Shown here piece after piece: positions 3,948-64,000 of a DNA stretch of 64,000 bases. This DNA is from Neovahlkampfia damariscottae (lineage: Eukaryota > Heterolobosea > Selenaionea > Neovahlkampfiida > Neovahlkampfiidae): the NCBI GenBank assembly GCA_016618085.1, contig JABLTG010000063.1, positions 34,024-98,023 of the forward strand, given 5' to 3'. How positions within the stretch are numbered: position 1 is the first letter of the stretch; every line of letters starts with the position of its first letter. The notes below the pieces were generated by a model. It saw only the letters and a list, made by a program, of their open reading frames with translations. It ran no database searches and was not told where the DNA came from. The translations under genes and the position numbers were made by a program.

Positions 3948-6571
3948 ATGAAGTTCGTCTTGCTCGTGTCAGTGCTTTTTGCAGCTGTTTTTTGTTTTGA
4001 ACAAAATCCAATTGAACCAGTTCCAATTTCAACATCAGCCACTCCAACATTACTCACTATCAAAGGTGGAGACTTCACGACTACCATAGCCCTTGACACT
4101 TGGAAGCTCATAACATTTGAAACTGACACTTCAAAAGTAATTCTTGAAGAAACAAGTTCAACAACAAGACTTTCAGTTACAGTATGGAAAGGAAGAGATT
4201 ATCCGATATACCTTGGTTATTTATTTCGAACAGGAAAAGTTCTTGAAAAATATGAAGCAACAAAAGTGGATTCCTGGAGACAAGTTGAAAATACAGTTGA
4301 ACTTGTTGTTTCAACAACATCACCAAACTTAAAAATTTCTGTCAAACTTTTTGATTTCAAAAGAAGACAATACTCATTTAAGGCGACAGTTCCTGGTAAA
4401 AATTCACCTTTAAAAGAACCAAGAATTTTCATGAGTCAAGGTTTTATGACACCAAAGAAAGAAGGTTTTTATGGTTTAGGAGAGAGATTTAACACAAATA
4501 ACCATCGTGGACATGTTATAGAAGCTTGGGTTGAAGGTAAAAACAACACAATTTTTCATTGATTATATTACCAGAAGGAGGATGGTCTACTGGATTTTTC
4601 TTACCAAGAAAAAGTAAAATTCGAGTACCTAGATATTACTCAACACATTTCCCAATTCCATTTTTCATTTCTAATCTTAAATATGGTTTTGAAGTTGATA
4701 CAAATTACACATCTGTTTTTGATTTTGCCAAAACCAAAAAAGATGAATTTAATGTTGAATCACAAAGCACAGATGTATCTTGGACTATTTATGGTGGCAA
4801 AAGTCCATTAGAAACTTTGAAAATGTACACAGAAAGAAGAGGAAGATCATTGATCCCGCCAAAATGGGCTTTTGGTCCTTGGAGTCAAGCTGGAGGTGAA
4901 TTTAATTTCACTAGAGATCCATATAGAGCTTCACAAGAATTCTTGAAGTTAGACTCTCCAATATCACATGTAGTTAATACACTTCACTTTTTACCTGCCA
5001 ATTCTGAAAGAGGAAGAGAAGCACAAGTTAAAAAATTAAGTTCAGATCTTTTAGGGATTGGTTTAAAACAAACAGCTTATTATAATCCATATGTACGTAA
5101 AGATGTCTCACCAGATTATGATCCTTGTGAAAAAGCAGGTTATTTCTTAAAACATCATAATACAACAGATTCTTATGTGTTTTGGTATTTTGGTGTAAAT
5201 TTTTATCAATGTTCAATGTTTGATTTTACAAATGAAGAAGCTGTGAAATATTTTAAAAAGATTCTTCAAAGATCAGTTGATTTAGGATTCAAAGGTTGGA
5301 TGCAAGATTATGCAGAATATGCACCATATTACTCAAAAGCACATGATGGAAGATTTGGTGATGAATTGCACAACCCATATCCTGTGTTATTTCAAAAAGC
5401 AACATTTGAATTTCTTCAACAATATGATGAAAATCCAAATGATAAATATGCTCCAGATTACATTCCATACTGTAGATCAGGATACACAGGAACATCAAAA
5501 TGGCAATGGGCAACTTGGAGTGGAGATCCTTCATCTGATTGGAGTTATGCTGCTGGATTACCTGCACAAGTAACTGCTTTATCAAATTTAGGATTATCAG
5601 GTGTTCCTTATTCAAGTTCGGATATTGGTGGATTCACTTGGTGGGTAACACCACCACCAGAAAATCAACTATGGTGCAGATGGGCTCAATTTTCTGTATT
5701 TACTTCTTTTATGCATACACAAACTGGTGGAAAAGGATTTGGAAAGAAAACAAAAATAATGGATACTCCAGAAGGTCGTTTCTGTTGGAGAAAATTCTCT
5801 AAATTACGTACTCAATTATTTCATTATATTTACAATGCTGCACATGATGCATATGATTCCGGTGTTCCTTTATTGAGACATCATCTTTTAGAATTTCCAG
5901 AAGATGAATATTCTCACAGTATTGCATATGATTTCACCTTTGGAAAAGATATGCTTGTTTCTCCTGTTGTCGATGAAGATCAAACTAAAAAATCAATTTA
6001 TCTTCCAAAAGGGGAAAATGAATGGTTTGATATGATGTCAAACATGATTTATGATGAAAAAGAAGGAAGATTTAGAATCAAATATTCTGAACCATTTAAA
6101 GGTGGACAAAATGTAACCGTTATATCTCCTGTATTTAGTCATATTCCAGTATTTATCAAATCTGGTACAATTCTTCCATTATTAGATCCTTCAGTTTGGA
6201 CATTGAATGATGCATCTAATGAAAATGTTGTTACTTATTCCAAAAGAGAACATTTACTTCATTTGATGATTTTTCAAAATTCAAAAGGTACTGCAAAGGG
6301 AAATGTTTGGGATGGAGCTGAATTTCTTTTTAGTGAAAATTCATTCATTGCACAAGATAAAAAAAATCGAATTTTGATACTTCAAATTCCAATTAAAGAG
6401 ATGAAATTTACAAGAATTATTGGAAATACAGGTCCTATTGATAAAGTTGATTCATATAAAAAATTATTATCTGTTGATAGAAATTCCAAATCGGGATGGG
6501 CTGTTGCAACTGACGAAAAAGTAATTTGGATAAGAATGCAACCAGAAGTTAGAAAAATTCAAATAATTTAA
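3948..6571 (+). CDS. Secreted GH31 family glycosidase, YihQ/SQase-like motif set
   Basis: Starts with a clear signal peptide (MKFVLLVSVLFAAVFC). One 38-nt intron at 4537-4574 restores WVEEGGWSTG across the junction; the total is about 861 residues. The GH31 nucleophile region reads GWMQDYAEYAP and the acid/base region GDPSSDWS, preceded by YCRSGYTGTSKW and followed by SSSDIGGFTWW. These match the D-(Y/F)-x-E-Y and DWS patterns of the bacterial sulfoquinovosidase YihQ branch better than the WxDMNE form of classical alpha-glucosidases. The enzyme should be exported or lysosomal and hydrolyse alpha-glycosides. Sulfoquinovose specificity cannot be decided by reading; the sulfonate-binding residues would need an alignment. 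Confidence 0.9.
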
Positions 6572-10962: not shown

Positions 10963-12131
10963 TTATTCTTCGATTCTTTGCTTCTTTTGACTGGAATTTT
11001 TGTTTCTTTCTTGTTGTTTTCTTTTCTTCTCTAATTCCTCATCAGCATAACTCTTTAAGAGTACTTTATAATAGATACCATCTTCATTTCTCAGGGGATA
11101 TTTCATAATGTGATAATTAGTGAGAGCATCACAAACTTTAAAGACCATAGAATAAGAATCTTCATCCCATTTGTATTTCCCTTCCACAATCTTGAATAAT
11201 TTCTTCATTCTTCCATAAAAATTTTCACAAATAATTCTGTTCTTCGCAATTTTCTTATTTCTCACATTTTCTTCTCTGCTTAAATTTGTACCTTTACTTG
11301 GAAGAATGGTTCTGATCTTTTCACTTGCTCCTTGGTATCCCTTGTCAACAAGCAAAGCTCAATGCTTGGAGTTTATCTTTGAGCTCTCCTTAATCATTTA
11401 CATTCATGTTTGAACCTTTCGTTTCCAAGAATTTCTCATAAATTTCCAAATTGTCTTTAAAAATGGTAAAATCGTGAACAGAACCAGCATAAATATCACT
11501 GATAAAGACAGTTAATCCGTTTGGCAAGTGAGATACTTCAGTCTTGTAACCATAGGCATGATGATTTCCAGAAAAATAATATTGAGTATCTCTAAACAAC
11601 ATATTTGGTTTAGTTCTCAATTGAAAGGTGACATCCACGACAAGACCAACTTCTGGATAATCTTCCAATAGGACATTCTTCTTCACTTGTTCATCTTTGT
11701 AAACAATTTGAATTAATTCACTTGTCAACGGTTCTACAATTTTTTCCAAAGTTCTGTTGGTAGTAGAAATAATAGTAAACTTTTTTATTTTGTAAGTGAC
11801 ACTAAACTTGTCCCATGATTCATAATGCTTCAACATGACCAACGTAAAGAAAAAAGAATCTAACGGTCCTATTTCCGGTTTCTTTCCTCTTCCTCTTGTT
11901 TTTATTTCTTTTCCACCAAAGAATAAAGTTCCATAAATTCACTGATACTAAATCCTGTCATGACTTTGATGGCTTCACTTCCTTCCTTCACAAATTTTTC
12001 ATAATAAACGCTTTCTTCTTCTTCCATCTGAGAGTTTGAGGAAAATTCTTCCACCACTTTCTTAATCTTTCTTTTTTGTCTTTTTCTAGGGTTTTATAGT
12101 TCTCAAGTATGGACTTAGTGTTTTCTGACAT
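10963..12131 (-). pseudogene. DDE transposase (Harbinger/IS5-like), multiply frameshifted
   Basis: Reading from ATG at 12131, the family order is recognisable: MTGFSISEFMELY, KPEIGPLDSFFFTLVMLKHY (helix-turn-helix region), VGLVVDVTFQ with the first acidic residue, a GSVHDFTIF block, LLVDKGYQG, and CENFYGRMKKLF carrying the final glutamate. The frame must be shifted at about 12050, about 11895 and about 11385, and a TGA interrupts just before the DKGY block (near 11360). A single working protein is therefore not encoded. The C-terminal tail is Lys/Gln-rich. In PIF/Harbinger elements this enzyme normally works with a Myb-like partner; I see no such gene here. Confidence 0.75.
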
Positions 12132-57662: not shown

Positions 57663-60025
57663 TTATTCATCAATTTCAGCAACTCTATATTCTGAAGCTT
57701 CAATTTCCACTTCCTGCAGTCCATCATTTTCATTTGAAATGTTTCTCATTTCTCTGTCGTTAGCAGGTTGAGGTTGATAATAAGTTGGTTGAATTCCAAT
57801 AATATTGTTGACTTCATCATGTTGTGGGATTTTTCTATCTTCAATTTCTTCCATATTTCCGCTATATCGAAGATATGAGAACATGTTCATTCTGTAAGCC
57901 AAATAAATCACAGGAAGGAACAATAGGAATGAAATGAAACAAGCAAACAATGAAACAGAAGGAGCTCCAACTGCCAATACTATCAATGCTGCATCTGATA
58001 AACCAAAATAATTCAGGTTGTAATATTGACATTCCAAACCTCTGCCAGTGTAACAATAGCAAAAATCAGATGAAATACATTCACCTCTTCCTGAACAAAC
58101 TGATGAATTTTTGGAATTGACTCCAAAGCATTTGAATTCCTGACAAGTTTCTCCAAAATACCCAGAATTGCAACTGCAATTATTTGGAGACAAACATTTG
58201 CCACGAGAAGAACAAACACTAAAGTCAGATGCACTCACTCCATAACATAATGCATTTTCACAAAGAGCTCCTGTATAATTCTGTCCACATACACATTTAT
58301 TAGGAGCAATACACTTTCCTTGTGAAGAACAAACATTAGTTTCATTGAAGTGAATATTCCCACACGAATGAACTTCACAGTTATTCCCAGCGTATCCAAC
58401 TGTACACTCACATTTATCTGGTGAAATGCAATCACCTCTTCCAAGACAAACATCATATTGAGTTGCATTTATTCCAGCACAAACTGGAGTTTCACATGTT
58501 TCACCAACATATCCAGGATCACAGACACAAGTTGAATTCATACAATATCCAAAATCAGAACAATAAACAGGAGGACCAGGAAAAGGGCATGCTTTTACAT
58601 TGCAGAATTTTCCAGAATAACCATCTTTGCATGTACATTTTTCTGGAGTTTCAGGTGAGCAATATCCATGATCTGAACATTTTTCATTGCATGTTAAGAA
58701 ATAACTTCTTCCTGCTTTTCCAACACCCACTTTAAAACTCTTTGGTGTTTTCAATTTTGATAAAGAGTATCTATCTATTAAATCATCTAAACCAAGTTGA
58801 CCCCACTAGTTGTTAATTTAAAATAGACTTACTCCATTAAATCCAGATCCAAAAACTGTTCCATTTTGATCAATAACTAAAAGATGATATCTTTCAACAT
58901 GAGCAATAGAGATATTTGAAAAACCAACAATTCTAGTTGGAACATTCTTTGATATTCTATCTCCATGACCTAAAGTTCCATACTTAAGAATTAGTGATAA
59001 ATCTATCTTACAGTTCCTAGTCCAAAAGTATAAATATCTGAATTCATGATCACTGCTGATGAAGCAGCACCTGCAGAAATGGAAGATACATTTCCAATTG
59101 AAACAAGCTGTATAAAGAGATTTCTACTATACACATCTCCAGACCCCAATTGACCTTGCTAAAAATGATAAAACTAAATTGTATTTCTTACTGCGTTGTA
59201 TCCAGCAACAAGAAGATTTCCAGATTGATCAAGCAAAATGCTATGAAATCCTCCCGCAGATATTTCTTTAATCTTGTTCGAAATTGGAACTTTTGTTGGT
59301 GTTGAAACTCCAGTATCAGAAAATAATCCAATTCCAAGTTGACCATCCTTTTGGAAATAAATAAGAATTTTTTTTTGATTTTTATACAATTGTATCACCA
59401 AATGAGTATATTTGATGGTTTTCTGTCAGCAGTAAAGAATGAAATGAACCAGCTGAAATTTTTGTGATGACTTCTTCAGTTCCATTCTCATTGACCACTG
59501 ATATTTTATTTGGAACGTATTTGTTAATATTATCTTTGAGGCCTAATTGTCCATATCTATTCGATCCAAATGAAAAAGTATCATTGTTGGTTGTTAAAAC
59601 TAAGTTATGATGTGAACCAGCAGAAATTTTTGAATTTCCTGCGAATGTAGGAATACAAATCATATAATGCTCTGTAGTTTGAACATTTTCACGACCTAAT
59701 TTCCCGTACTTTTTGGATTTTAAAAAATAATGAATAAAACTAACTGTGCCTTCACCAAATGTACAAACAGATCCATTGTTTAATAGAGCCATAGTATGTG
59801 AATATCCACTTGAAATATCAATTACATTTGAAAGTAAAAGTTCTTTTGGTGTTGTTAAATCCGTGAATGCGCCTATTCCATCACCAGTCAATGCGTTAAA
59901 CTTTTAAATTTTTTTAAATTTTTTTTCTTTACCCAGTTGTCTCCGGTTCCATATATTTTTGATGTTTGACCATTGACAGTGAAGAAATATTTACAAAAAA
60001 AAATAATGAAAACCAACTTCCACAT
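57663..60025 (-). CDS. RCC1-repeat and EGF-repeat single-pass membrane protein
   Basis: Seven exons with six introns of 27-40 nt (59901-59932, 59709-59744, 59348-59387, 59159-59191, 58983-59011, 58806-58832), all phase 0, give about 721 residues. It starts with a signal peptide (MWKLVFIIFFCKYFF). The first half has about seven RCC1 blades (SSGYSHTMALLNNGSVCTFG, SAGSHHNLVLTTNN, SAGGFHSILLDQSG), forming a propeller. Then come about six tenascin-like EGF repeats (CSSQGKCIAPNKCVC, CSSRGKCLSPNNCSC). A membrane helix (APSVSLFACFISFLLFLPVIYLA) and a cytoplasmic tail of about 85 residues with Tyr and Pro follow. Likely a cell-surface adhesion or recognition receptor. Confidence 0.88.
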
Positions 60026-60545
60026 GTTGATGTCTTTGTGAAAAATTAACGTTGATTTTTGTCCAATCAGATTGAAATCAATTCACCTGACCAAAAAGAG
60101 TTTGGAAAAATACAAAACTAAAATTCAATTGAAAAATATCAACTTTAATGCTAAATCAAATACCAACCTTTGTGAATTCAATGAAAATGTACATTTAAAA
60201 TTCACATGAAGAATTTTGTAAGTTATGAAGTTCATTCAATGATACTTGCCAGATTTGCAGAAAAAAAATTGTCAAATTTGTAGTTGATTTTTGAAATATC
60301 AAAATAGCATTTAAATTTAGAGTAGATTAAATACCTCTCACATCAATTCTTTTTTTATTATTCACAAAAGAATAGCCCACTGAGTCATCAAATTTACTCA
60401 ATTTCATCTCAGAACTATTCAATCGGAGAAAGAATTTTTTGATTGAATAAGATTTTGATTGCTGTTGACTTATTTCTCGATATGGCATACTTCTGAAAAG
60501 CTGAAAAGCAAGATCAAACGAATTTGATTGGAAGTTAAAAAACAA
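60026..60545. other. Intergenic region
   Basis: 520 bp between the divergent RCC1-EGF gene and the first small tandem gene. CCAATCA lies near 60064, about 40 bp from the RCC1-EGF start, and GATTGG near 60525, about 20 bp before the ATG at 60546. I see no gene here. Confidence 0.4.
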
Positions 60546-60821
60546 ATGAACAAATTCATCCAGTACAGAAATTTCTTCACTGCTTCAAGACAAATTCCAT
60601 TGTCAAATGGAAAGAACATAAATCCTTCAAAATTTGTTGTCATTAGATTAGAACCAGATACCACTTCGACAACAATAGGAGAATATTCAAATGAATCAGA
60701 AGCTGTTGCCAAATGTTCTTCTCTTGCTTGCCATGCTGAAAAGTATTCACTTGGAACTCAATTTTATATTAAGCATGAAGATGTAAAATCTGTTGCATAT
60801 CGTAAATCATGGGAAAAATAA
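60546..60821 (+). CDS. Tandem small-protein family, copy 1
   Basis: 91 residues from ATG at 60546, about 20 bp after a GATTGG motif. The shared core is PSKFVVIRLEPDTTSTTIGE followed by YSNESEAVAKCSSL, a HAEKYSLGTQFYIK strand and a short variable tail. The pattern strand - (D/E)PDT - IGEY - ESEA helix - HxEK - FYIK repeats in the next three genes, so all four are paralogues. The predicted look is a small beta-alpha-beta fold. No signal peptide, no membrane segment, no known family that I recognise. Confidence 0.65.
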   Translation: MNKFIQYRNFFTASRQIPLSNGKNINPSKFVVIRLEPDTTSTTIGEYSNESEAVAKCSSLACHAEKYSLGTQFYIKHEDVKSVAYRKSWEK

Positions 60822-61062
60822 ATAAAAATTTATTTTCTTTGTCCATGTATACATCGACCAGATTCAATGAGAAATATAATCCTCAAAGACAGAAAATGAA
60901 ACCAATATCGTAAAGTTCTGAGAATTTTTGGTTTGTATTTATCAAGAAATGGAATTGACAGTAATTGATTTGACAGTGTTCGATAGAAATGTCCAAAGTT
61001 GGCATTCCGAAAAAGTGATAAATCCAGATCAAAGAAAACGATTGGTCCACAAAACAAAAAAA

Positions 61063-61305
61063 ATGAATACCAAACAACTCACAAGAATGTTAAAGACAAC
61101 ACAACAAATGAGATTTTCAAAATACGTTGTCGTCAGATCAGATCCAGAGACGATGACATCAGAGATAGGAGAGTATCTCGATGAATTTGAAGCCTTTGAA
61201 AAACTTGCTTCACTTAATTTACATTCTGAAAAACGTGGAATTCCAGCTCGATTTTTCATAAAGATTGAAGATCAACAACCACAATCTACTTATTCGTTCA
61301 ATTAA
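61063..61305 (+). CDS. Tandem small-protein family, copy 2
   Basis: 80 residues from ATG at 61063, about 22 bp after CGATTGGTCC. Core: FSKYVVVRSDPETMTSEIGE, YLDEFEAFEKLASL, HSEKRGIPARFFIK. This is the copy closest to the family consensus and lacks copy 1's basic tail, ending QPQSTYSFN. The longer open frame upstream contains the promoter motif, so I use the internal ATG. Confidence 0.65.
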   Translation: MNTKQLTRMLKTTQQMRFSKYVVVRSDPETMTSEIGEYLDEFEAFEKLASLNLHSEKRGIPARFFIKIEDQQPQSTYSFN

Positions 61306-61513
61306 CCAAGAAATTAAATAAAACTTTTGTGGAACTATTTCATCTCTTTTCGATCAACGAAGCACTTCAAACCAGAGAATTCTGAAATTGTTTATTCAAC
61401 AAAAAAAAGTATTTTCGTTCCAAAATCTGTTCTCTATTCAGAAATGAACATTTACATTTTTGGCTCTTGGGATCAATGAAATATCATTGGTTTTCATTGA
61501 TCAACCGATTTTC

Positions 61514-61774
61514 ATGAATATTTTTAGGCAAAAAAGAAGTTATTTCAAAACTCCAAAAAAAATTCCATTGTCAAAATTCATTAAATTTTCAGTTGTCCGT
61601 TATGATTTGGATACTACTGTTGCAACATTTCCAGAGTACGTTGACGAATTTGAATCTTTTGAAAAATCATCTTTTATGATAATTCATATGGAAAAAATCT
61701 CAGTTGGAGCTAAATTTTACCTCAAAAGGGAATTCAAACAACTTCTATTCAAAGATTGCTCTCTATTTCATTAA
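61514..61774 (+). CDS. Tandem small-protein family, copy 3
   Basis: 86 residues from ATG at 61514, about 25 bp after CATTGGTTTTC. Core: FIKFSVVRYDLDTTVATFPE, YVDEFESFEKSSFM, HMEKISVGAKFYLK. The PLSKF lead-in and the IPLSK segment are shared with copies 1 and 4. The IGEY of other copies is FPEY here. Tail basic then hydrophobic (LLFKDCSLFH). Confidence 0.6.
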   Translation: MNIFRQKRSYFKTPKKIPLSKFIKFSVVRYDLDTTVATFPEYVDEFESFEKSSFMIIHMEKISVGAKFYLKREFKQLLFKDCSLFH

Positions 61775-62059
61775 AAATAGAAAAATTACTTATTTAATTG
61801 ATCGAAATTTATTGTTGTATCAGAATTTACAATTAGGAATGAATGTATTCCTTTTCCAAAACGATCTTTAAACTCCAGAACGGATTTTGAGAGTAAAATG
61901 ATTCAGACGCAATATTTTTCAGTTTTTTTGGAACCATATCGATTTAAACTGAAAATTTACTGTAAATATTCATCAATTTTCAATAGAAACTTGGTCTTTT
62001 TTCATTTCCAAATTTGAAATTTTTGTGATCAAAAGCAGTTGATTGGACAATCTAAATTA

Positions 62060-62347
62060 ATGAAGAGAAAATACTTCCAAATCCGTAAAATTTACAGTCC
62101 GCCCAGGAAAATACCATGGTGCTGCCCATATGAAAATAGAGAACCTTTATCAAAGTTCATAATTATCAGACATGATGCAGAAACCTGTTTGGATCATATC
62201 ATTGGAGAATTCACAAATGAATCCGAAGCTTTGAAAAAAATTGCACTATTGACTGAAAAGTCAAGGAGTAATTCATTTAGCACTTCATTTTCAATCAAAA
62301 AAAAATTTCAACCATTTTCATGTGCAAATTGTCCTCTTAACAAATAA
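62060..62347 (+). CDS. Tandem small-protein family, copy 4
   Basis: 95 residues from ATG at 62060, about 18 bp after TTGATTGGACA. Core: LSKFIIIRHDAETCLDHIIG, EFTNESEALKKIALL, then a diverged FSTSFSIKKKF. It has four extra cysteines (PWCCPY and SCANCPL) not seen in the other copies. The most divergent member; it lies about 1.2 kb from the TnpB-like gene. Confidence 0.6.
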   Translation: MKRKYFQIRKIYSPPRKIPWCCPYENREPLSKFIIIRHDAETCLDHIIGEFTNESEALKKIALLTEKSRSNSFSTSFSIKKKFQPFSCANCPLNK

Positions 62348-62394: not shown

Positions 62395-62900
62395 TTAGTA
62401 CCATCTGGAATTCAAAATATGTCTTATACAAATCTTTAAGATGTATATTGAATAAATAATAGTGAAAATCAAACTCGGAAAATAACAAAACAAATAAAGA
62501 AATGCTCCAATCATCAAACTACGACATTCTCCATAATTTAAGTAATCATAAAAACTTTTTTTTTGACCCTTTCAAAATATTTTTAAATTTACTTTTTGTC
62601 AAACGTTGAAAGAAGGATCAGCTGGATTTCTTAAATTTTGATCTTTTTCTAACGGATACCATGATTCTTCAGGTACGTAAGGAATCAAGCAAACAAAAAT
62701 TATCGGTGGAAAAATACAAATAGTAATGCAGAATAAAAACAAAATACAAAAAAGAAGTAGCAGACCTAAAACTAGAATCTCACAACAACAGAAAATAGAG
62801 CAAGCATAAATGGTAATATAATAACAACCATAAGCTATTTTGAATAATACATCAGCACATTTCCTTTAACTTGGTGAATTTCTTTTGATGCTTACGCCAT
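62395..62900 (-). CDS. Small multi-pass membrane protein; possible 5-nt first coding exon
   Basis: Exons 62896-62900, 62605-62863 and 62395-62568 (introns 32 and 36 nt) give about 145 residues. Membrane segments: YITIYACSIFCCCEILVL, LLLLFCILFLFCITICIFPP and MIGAFLYLFCYFPSLIFTII. A conserved-looking loop (PYVPEESWYPLEKDQNLR) lies between them, and the tail is basic (RHILNSRWY). The start is weak because only ATGGC precedes the first intron, so a further upstream exon is possible. No family recognised. Confidence 0.55.
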
Positions 62901-63565
62901 GAAGTAAATTTATTTGTCCAATTAAAATTTAGTTTGTAAAATGAGCAACTTAACAACAATTGTAACAAAACCGAAAATGTAAATACTTTATTCGTTAATT
63001 ATATTAGAAAACAAAAACCTTTGTCTTTGTACTGGTGGTTTCGCGGAAAATATATGTCTGATGTTGATGAGAATTTTAGACCAACTTCTGACGATATTCT
63101 GGAGGTAAAATAGATCTGTATATTGAAAATCTTAGAAATTAGCATGGTCTTCTATAAAATATAATCATTTAGGTGGCCCAAATACGGATGGTGTTCTTTT
63201 AACAGTTTTTGAAAAAAAAATCTCAAAATTTTAAATAGTATTTGAACGGAAAGTTGAGAAATCCAAACAACATTTGGAAAATGAATGAATCTTCAATGAT
63301 GAATCGAATTTTTCAATTTGAAAATTTGTTACATTTTTTAACATTAATTTTTCACATTTTTGTATTACTACCTTCAACATCAAACTACCTTTTGATAACT
63401 TCAAAGATAAAAAGCACATTAAAAAAACTGATCAAATTTTAAAATAAACTTTATTCTAACATCAACATTGGAAAAAATTACATTTTGATTCAAAATCACC
63501 CAAAAATTGTCAATGCATCATTCAAATATTCTTTTTTTTCTGAATAAACACAGATCACCGCTATC
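62901..63565. other. Non-coding or unresolved region downstream of the TnpB-like gene
   Basis: An ATG at 63054 opens a short acidic peptide (MSDVDENFRPTSDDILE) that runs into a GTAAAA splice-donor-like site at 63112. It may be a first exon, but no continuation is convincing. The part next to the TnpB-like stop (about 63430-63565) is where a guide RNA overlapping the 3' end would be expected for such genes; I see no decisive structure by eye. A GAACGGAAAGT at 63243 has a near-complementary ACTTTTCCGTTC at about 63572. Confidence 0.3.
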
Positions 63566-64000
63566 TTAAAACTGACTTTTCCGTTCATTCTGATTAATCA
63601 GACCAGACATTAAAATCAAGGTTTCTTTCGGGATAGGACCGTCGCCAGCAGTACTGGCAGTTTTTGGATTTCCAATAAAATTTTGTATATTCATCAGAAA
63701 TATATTTCTTGCTCCATTATAATCTCTTGGAAGAGAAAAATTACAATATTTACAATTGAAATAATCTTTTTTTCCAAGTTTCCAATCTATTTTTCCACAT
63801 AATCCACATGTACAACTGGTATAATGTTCTGAAACTTCATGTACTTGAACAGAATCTTTTTGAGCAAGATGTTTTAGTGTTTGACAAAATTGAAAATGAG
63901 ACCAATGAAGCATTTTTCTCACTGTTGTACTATGAATTTTTCTTTCCCATTTTTTAATCATTCCTTTGACTGGAAATTTTGAAATCAAAATTTCATCATT
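63566..64000 (-). CDS. TnpB-like RNA-guided nuclease, probable Fanzor (C-terminal part; runs off the window)
   Basis: The frame is open from the window edge to a stop at 63566, about 144 codons. It contains the TnpB/Fanzor C-terminal half in order: a helix with MLHWSHFQFCQTLKHLAQK, then HEVSEHYTSCTCGLCGK with the RuvC-II glutamate and first CxxC, FNCKYCNF with the second CxxC, and PRDYNGARNIF with the RuvC-III aspartate. No frameshift or stop lies in the visible part. RuvC-I and the wedge/REC region lie outside the window. In an intron-bearing nuclear region the simplest call is Fanzor, the eukaryotic TnpB homologue. The short tail after RuvC-III is Pro/Thr/Gly-rich. Confidence 0.85.
   Translation of the reverse strand, partial: NDEILISKFPVKGMIKKWERKIHSTTVRKMLHWSHFQFCQTLKHLAQKDSVQVHEVSEHYTSCTCGLCGKIDWKLGKKDYFNCKYCNFSLPRDYNGARNIFLMNIQNFIGNPKTASTAGDGPIPKETLILMSGLINQNERKSQF

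Follow-up and report, generated by a model that had tools for sequence, protein, structure and literature searches.

The window analysed here, a stretch of DNA 64,000 nucleotides long, probably encodes at its right-hand edge the C-terminal part of a Fanzor2-type protein belonging to the genome of an AT-rich eukaryote, likely a protist. The visible part (hereafter the query), which may make up between a quarter and a third of the full protein, keeps its catalytic and zinc-binding residues in an intact frame of 144 codons. Fanzors are known eukaryotic RNA-guided DNA nucleases of use in genome editing; existing knowledge of the family is unchanged by the query, and a further Fanzor2 from an AT-rich protist would add to a thinly sampled branch and offer a candidate short guide RNA.

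By analogy with the family, the full protein would bind an omega RNA produced from the 3' end of the same gene, with the guide portion of this RNA coming from the DNA that flanks the element, and a RuvC triad (a RuvC-I Asp predicted beyond the window, Glu58 and Asp93) would cut matching DNA beside a short motif. With TnpB, breakage of the empty site prompts copy-back and so helps the transposon to persist.

Table 1. Features of the window discussed in the text
Feature	Position	Strand	Basis
C-terminal 144 codons + TAA of a Fanzor2-like RNA-guided nuclease	63566..64000	-	frame, domain and fold matches; 5' part beyond the window
Ser7 codon, canonical RuvC-II glutamate column	63980..63982	-	Sulfolobus TnpB has E there
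Glu58 codon, putative alternative RuvC-II glutamate (E-alt), separated from the zinc finger as in Fanzors (six residues ahead of it)	63827..63829	-	alignment; definition from PMC10711439 (in part)
C4 zinc finger, Cys65/Cys68 ... Cys83/Cys86; extra Cys63 (TSCTC) just upstream	63743..63808	-	alignment
Asp93 codon of PRDYNGA, RuvC-III aspartate	63722..63724	-	alignment
Candidate 5' part of guide (omega/re) RNA within the C-terminal codons	63629..63675	-	hairpins; overlaps GC peak
Hairpin 1	63664-63675	-	folding
Hairpin 2	63643-63659	-	folding
Weak hairpin 3	63629-63641	-	folding
32-nt GT-AG intron, RCC1-repeat gene	59901..59932	-	inferred from reading frame
30-nt GT-AG intron, cytochrome P450 gene	9776..9805	+	inferred
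38-nt GT-AG intron, glycosyl hydrolase 31 (GH31) gene	4537..4574	+	inferred

Homology of the reading frame

The query occupies a single open frame on the minus strand that ends in TAA and is still open at the window edge. The initial annotation had placed three motifs, SEHYTSCTCGLCG, CKYC and PRDYNGARN, in one frame, and all of them indeed lie in it, with no interruption over the 144 codons. The translation matches the Pfam domain Cas12f1-like_TNB (the Cas12f/TnpB zinc-ribbon domain; E 6.6e-15), the NCBIfam family guided_TnpB (E 3.7e-17; 62.7 bits, which is under the whole-protein cut-off of 100, as a fragment would be expected to be) and a transposase family of PHROGs (E 7.3e-18). The best solved relative by sequence is the mimivirus TnpB-like protein L79 (PDB 9b0l, an entry titled mimivirus Fanzor2 ternary complex), found at E 4.3e-13 in a single-sequence search; the E-value of 1e-43 obtained for the same entry with a profile is circular, since the profile already contained an L79 fragment. 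Judged by these sequence matches, homology to the TnpB/Fanzor family is far beyond chance, and the family membership proposed earlier is upheld by the Pfam, guided_TnpB and single-sequence 9b0l results.

When 56 relatives of at least 450 aa were used as queries against the window, all 56 hit this known site and no further TnpB/Fanzor traces were found, every match elsewhere in the window having an E-value of 0.043 or worse. No near kin of the query was confirmed in IMG/VR, where pattern candidates numbered 5 with the protein alone, 21 with the mimivirus fragment and 76 with both.

Catalytic and zinc-binding residues

Two fingerprints of Fanzors have been described, a DPG motif in RuvC-I and a RuvC-II glutamate shifted to six residues before the zinc finger, the canonical RuvC-II glutamate, about 50 residues upstream of the alternative one, being lost (PMC10711439, in part). 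The same source also reports E-alt in some bacterial TnpBs and in a clade whose RuvC-I motifs differ, and E-alt by itself does not define a Fanzor. The glutamate half of the fingerprint is readable in the query; RuvC-I would fall beyond base 64000. In an alignment with an archaeal TnpB serving as the column reference, whose residues at the canonical and alternative columns are E and P, the query shows Ser7 and Glu58, respectively. The query therefore carries E-alt and lacks the canonical glutamate, as in the Fanzor lineage, and does not have the residue expected of a canonical TnpB. The relocated RuvC-II glutamate, as read from the alignment, is half of the Fanzor fingerprint.

The glutamate of SEHYTS, which had been assigned to RuvC-II at the outset, is a catalytic candidate because the lineage moved its RuvC-II glutamate there; the assignment holds in this relocated sense only, the glutamate of canonical TnpBs being situated about 50 residues upstream (PMC10711439, in part). 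According to a structural study, the catalytic glutamate sits in the loop preceding the TNB domain (PMC11423790, in part), and Glu58 of the query lies there. The proposed RuvC-III element is borne out by Asp93 in PRDYNGA. The family motif is given as D-X(125,275)-[TS][TS]-x-x-[C4 zinc finger]-x(5,50)-RD (PMC3627910, in part), and its visible part is present in the query as TSCT, C65/C68/C83/C86 and RD, while the leading D would be outside the window.

The zinc finger was likewise correctly recognised, as the four cysteines align with those of mimivirus L79; at each zinc position, 33-36 of the 116 E-alt relatives surveyed below have no Cys or are unaligned. Two residues had been singled out as departures from the usual pattern, and both are real. 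The first, Cys63 of TSCTC, is unique, with Cys in none of the 154 relatives aligned there (Lys in 98, Gln in 39 and Val, Arg, Thr, Ser, Ile or Leu in the rest). The second, Pro before RD, is ordinary in the E-alt lineage, since 30 of 116 E-alt relatives carry it (as do 3 of 38 others). As a separate observation, zinc-finger cysteines are lost in many E-alt relatives from viral contigs (L007-L021, L023) and in several from Thiotrichales, e.g. TSKTVSWTGEI, and these relatives still keep E-alt and RuvC-III.

Most transposon copies decay, and the query could be part of a dead remnant whose upstream part is lost or broken, a reading compatible with its being a Fanzor2. The uniqueness of Cys63 among 154 relatives and the failure to find a second copy in the window are in keeping with decay, whereas the retention of the visible catalytic and zinc residues in a frame open over 144 codons speaks against it; we regard a dead copy as less likely than not.

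Genomic context and host

The GC content of the window is 25-33% in 2-kb steps. The P450, GH31 and RCC1 genes read through once GT-AG stretches of 30, 38 and 32 nt, respectively, are removed (Table 1); the distance between the predicted RCC1 intron and the Fanzor-like ORF is about 3.6 kb, and the RCC1-repeat gene may hold a second intron. EGF and gelsolin proteins encoded in the window also fit a eukaryote. The contig, as judged from its sequence, is eukaryotic because GT-AG introns can be inferred in three conserved genes, one of them 3.6 kb from the ORF, and the earlier proposal of a eukaryotic source thereby holds. The same predicted introns argue that the DNA adjoining the ORF inside the window is not bacterial, a finding that would have told against that proposal, and that the protein is encoded in a eukaryote or its virus. 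The host is probably an AT-rich protist. GT-AG introns of 30-38 nt are of unusual length for most eukaryotes, and may help name the organism.

Survey of relatives

A total of 155 relatives (80 viral, 71 genomic and 4 from phages or plasmids) were compared for the key residues. E-alt without the canonical glutamate was observed in 116 of the 155 and both glutamates together in none. The canonical column could be aligned in 83 of the 116 E-alt relatives and is occupied by P in 80, and by F, A and G in one each. Of the 39 non-E-alt relatives, 15 carry the canonical E. The alignment covers the alternative column in 38 of the 39, with Pro in 28 and E in 0.

The relatives scoring at least 55 bits are almost uniformly of the E-alt type (82 of 83), the remaining one (L112) having a stop in the E-alt column. 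RuvC-I of these 82 reads DPG in 57, gives no pattern match in 18 and has another reading in 7, namely L003, a pattern error (AFDPG), L002, truly DQG, and five Arthrospira sequences with DRG (ORFs of 222-253 aa), which is probably not RuvC-I. DLG or DVG in place of DPG was found in 25 E-alt loci (L050 and others), all below 50 bits, and E-alt relatives with DLG score 42 bits or less. Thus, on these readings, the best-scoring relatives of the query are of the DPG kind. DPG is also present in 48 of 55 E-alt ORFs of at least 450 aa, a length rule that omits the shorter DLG proteins.

The genome scan yielded 71 loci, 54 of them with cyanobacterial titles, the remainder including 15 from gammaproteobacteria, for the most part Thiotrichales; as its patterns were derived from the query and two cyanobacterial-type rows, the scan favours cyanobacteria.

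Phylogenetic position and origin

Two phylogenetic trees were inferred, both of them shallow (112 and 115 columns) and with L79 as the single Fanzor2 reference from a virus of eukaryotes. The first comprised 63 rows, after removal of rows more than 95% alike, rows shorter than 95 aa and all but 10 of the rows labelled 'can'; L005, L010, L020 and L121 among the latter are actually E-alt, likewise L050, which leaves a true canonical set of 5 rows. In this tree, the query falls outside all prokaryote and phage E-alt rows at a weak fork (81/52), and is nearer to those rows than L79 is (99/88). The second comprised 84 rows of all kinds with corrected labels, after removal of rows more than 85% alike, and places the query within a set (97/99) whose E-alt rows comprise 25 with DPG, 6 unread and 3 others and which L79 adjoins (98/89), the DLG/E-alt and canonical rows being placed elsewhere. 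Within this set, the query, whose branch measures 1.50, is paired with the cyanobacterial L096 (89/78) inside a cyanobacterial group (92/85). The branch of the query is long in both trees (1.3-1.5) and its position differs between them. Membership of the query in the DPG/E-alt clade of Fanzors and cyanobacterial pro-Fanzors is well supported by these alignments; with 112 and 115 columns and one Fanzor2 reference, the trees cannot say whether it would lie on the Fanzor or the pro-Fanzor side.

A different origin has to be weighed, in which the query is a pro-Fanzor TnpB of the cyanobacterial IS607 type, acquired through a bacterial transfer separate from the known Fanzor2s, or is bacterial DNA misjoined to the contig. 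The nearest sequences found are bacterial, being cyanobacterial pro-Fanzors together with a Microcoleus phage (46%), identities in the genome scan reaching at best 49% (99 residues) and 51% (75 residues); a (P/S)RDxNG block is common to the query and the cyanobacterial pro-Fanzors, and the second tree sets the query beside L096. However, no prokaryote closer than about 50% was found, the scan that supplied these identities was itself seeded with the two cyanobacterial-type rows, and the placement on so long a branch is unstable. Base composition likewise fits a eukaryote, as does the RCC1 gene with its predicted intron at a distance of 3.6 kb. A fold search of BFVD, a library of viral models only, prefers giant-virus proteins: ranks 1-36, led by Pandoravirus, Yasminevirus, Klosneuvirus, Hokovirus and other viruses of eukaryotes, include 25 entries with a printed organism, all of them viruses of eukaryotes and mostly giant viruses, and 11 with no organism given, the first phage appearing at rank 37. 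A separate or bacterial origin is accordingly considered unlikely.

With regard to mobility, a Fanzor2 would be expected on an IS607-type element with a serine recombinase (TnpA) or on some other transposon of eukaryotes. A set of 50 ORFs of 150-280 aa upstream of the relatives gave no match to the window at 0.01; a recombinase motif was present in 0 of the 50, and the comparison therefore says nothing about TnpA. No element ends were recognised in the window, as would be expected of a host gene domesticated from a Fanzor2 and no longer mobile; such domestication, compatible with the Fanzor2 reading, seems improbable to us.

Candidate guide RNA

At a scale of 25-40 nt, GC content in the window peaks mainly at about 63619-63661, within the 3' part of the ORF, and at the tRNA-Ala gene (62095 and 37593 are also listed); at 60 nt, the top 12 peaks include the tRNA and not 63619-63661. 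Among all 33-nt stretches, a fraction of 3.1e-5 attain the value of the query peak. Two hairpins are predicted for the query codons that match the hairpin site of the relatives, namely TTGG-AAAT-CCAA and one of seven pairs, two of them G-U. In a test designed after seeing the query, this two-hairpin layout was present in the query, in 12 of 34 relatives, in 12 of 1000 shuffles and in 119 of 7994 window 61-mers (2 of them as stable). The fold z-score is -0.6 for 63440-63670 and -1.0, -1.6 and -2.0 for shorter pieces.

A pseudoknot has been described in reRNAs (PMC10711439, in part), and the tails of the relatives agree with it in having a hairpin-1 loop (GATAC, GATTC, GATAG) with its complement at the right end before NG; since the loop complement served as a selection rule, this agreement is no independent test of the pseudoknot. 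The tails were selected by RD-x-N-G, E by regex, a length of at least 250 bases and removal of duplicates, which kept 72 of 155 (L005, L006 and L010 being wrongly left out by the regex); 9 of the 72 have no recognised 5' strand, 11 have no exact partner and 52 have a partner. Removal of near-copies left 34 tails, of which alignment A4 used 21 and A5 14. A downstream partner for the hairpin-1 loop of the query (GATTT) was considered and dropped, as by eye it occurs more than once in the AT-rich DNA of the window.

A covariance model (R1) built from 14 prokaryotic reRNA tails recovered 8 of 14 other loci at E<0.01 in the expected tails, some of these being close kin of the training rows; L085 (0.24) and L008 (0.34) were found at the right place and L003, L018, L020 and L021 were missed. 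RNAalifold gave three pairs on the R1 alignment. R1 found nothing at the candidate RNA of the query, its best match in 62800-64000 being one of 7.3 bits (E 0.45) at 63185-63254. In Rfam, nothing was found near the gene other than a sub-threshold SNORD91-like match.

An omega RNA at the 3' end of the gene is likely by analogy with the family, the sequence itself giving only hints of it. The stretch at about 63629-63675 may plausibly form a structured RNA, and a guide RNA starting near 63675, which would overlap roughly the last 36 codons, is weakly supported. A more far-reaching and tentative suggestion is that a eukaryote with ultra-short introns harbours a Fanzor2 that is intact and mobile, its compact guide RNA lying in the last ~36 codons and retaining the two-hairpin start seen in reRNAs of cyanobacterial pro-Fanzors; this Fanzor2 possibly arrived by a transfer other than that of the known ones. 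If true, the RNA architecture as well as the nuclease would have persisted in the passage from bacteria to a eukaryote.

Predicted structure and comparison with known systems

The AlphaFold2 model of the fragment has a mean pLDDT of 76.6, with block means of 79-93 for residues 21-100, and a pTM of 0.48. In a Foldseek search against the PDB, the mimivirus Fanzor2 9b0l ranked first (E 2.6e-5), followed by Cas12f. When normalised by the query, TM-scores do not exceed 0.50. The Fanzor1 structures among the matches listed, 9cey (0.22), 9cf0 (0.47), 9cf1 (0.85) and 8gkh (0.91), are weak matches for a query fragment that does not include RuvC-I, and none of the four appears among the 45 sequence matches with E-values no greater than 1. 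The model is thus closer to the one solved Fanzor2 (2.6e-5) than to Fanzor1 (0.22 or worse), and we conclude that the fragment is Fanzor2-like. Fanzor1 also occurs in protists (PMC10432273, in part), but its poor structural matches (0.22-0.91 vs 2.6e-5) and absence from the sequence matches make it a very unlikely identity for the query.

Mimivirus Fanzor2 (Acanthamoeba polyphaga mimivirus L79), the solved structure that matches best in both sequence and fold, shares with the query E-alt, the absence of the canonical E, the C4 zinc finger and RD-x-N-x-A, at 35% identity over 105 columns; it differs in being virus-borne and in having TTKTC and DRD where the query has TSCTC and PRD. The cyanobacterial pro-Fanzors (IS607 TnpBs with DPG and E-alt) share up to 49% identity over 99 residues, the residue pattern and the clade, and their reRNA overlaps the 3' codons, as proposed for the candidate RNA of the query. 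They differ in being bacterial, whereas the query sits on a long branch and has no match to the prokaryotic reRNA model. Canonical IS605/IS607 TnpB and Cas12f have RuvC and a zinc ribbon in common with the query, but their glutamate lies upstream and Pro is found at the E-alt column in 28 of the 38 aligned non-E-alt relatives.

NlovFz2 of Naegleria lovaniensis (Percolozoa), likened here by description and not by sequence, is likewise a Fanzor2 in a free-living protist and is active in human cells (PMC10432273, in part); Acanthamoeba also carries Fanzor2s (PMC3627910, in part). A literature search on Fanzor/TnpB in eukaryotes, in Naegleria and on IS607 in protists returned known papers, and the gene could still stand in a supplement. 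The query is a believable further member of the known Fanzor/pro-Fanzor family, most likely a Fanzor2.

Other features of the window

Four ORFs of about 97-127 aa on the plus strand, at 60528-60821, 60922-61305, 61448-61774 and 62018-62347, appear by eye to be tandem paralogues; three of the four, when scanned, gave no Pfam match at 0.01. The SNORD91-like Rfam match mentioned above (62148-62239, plus strand; 27.5 bits against a cut-off of 51) lies inside one of them and is probably due to chance. A DDE_Tnp_4 transposase, presumably of the PIF/Harbinger type, is split across two ORFs at 10963-11842 on the minus strand.
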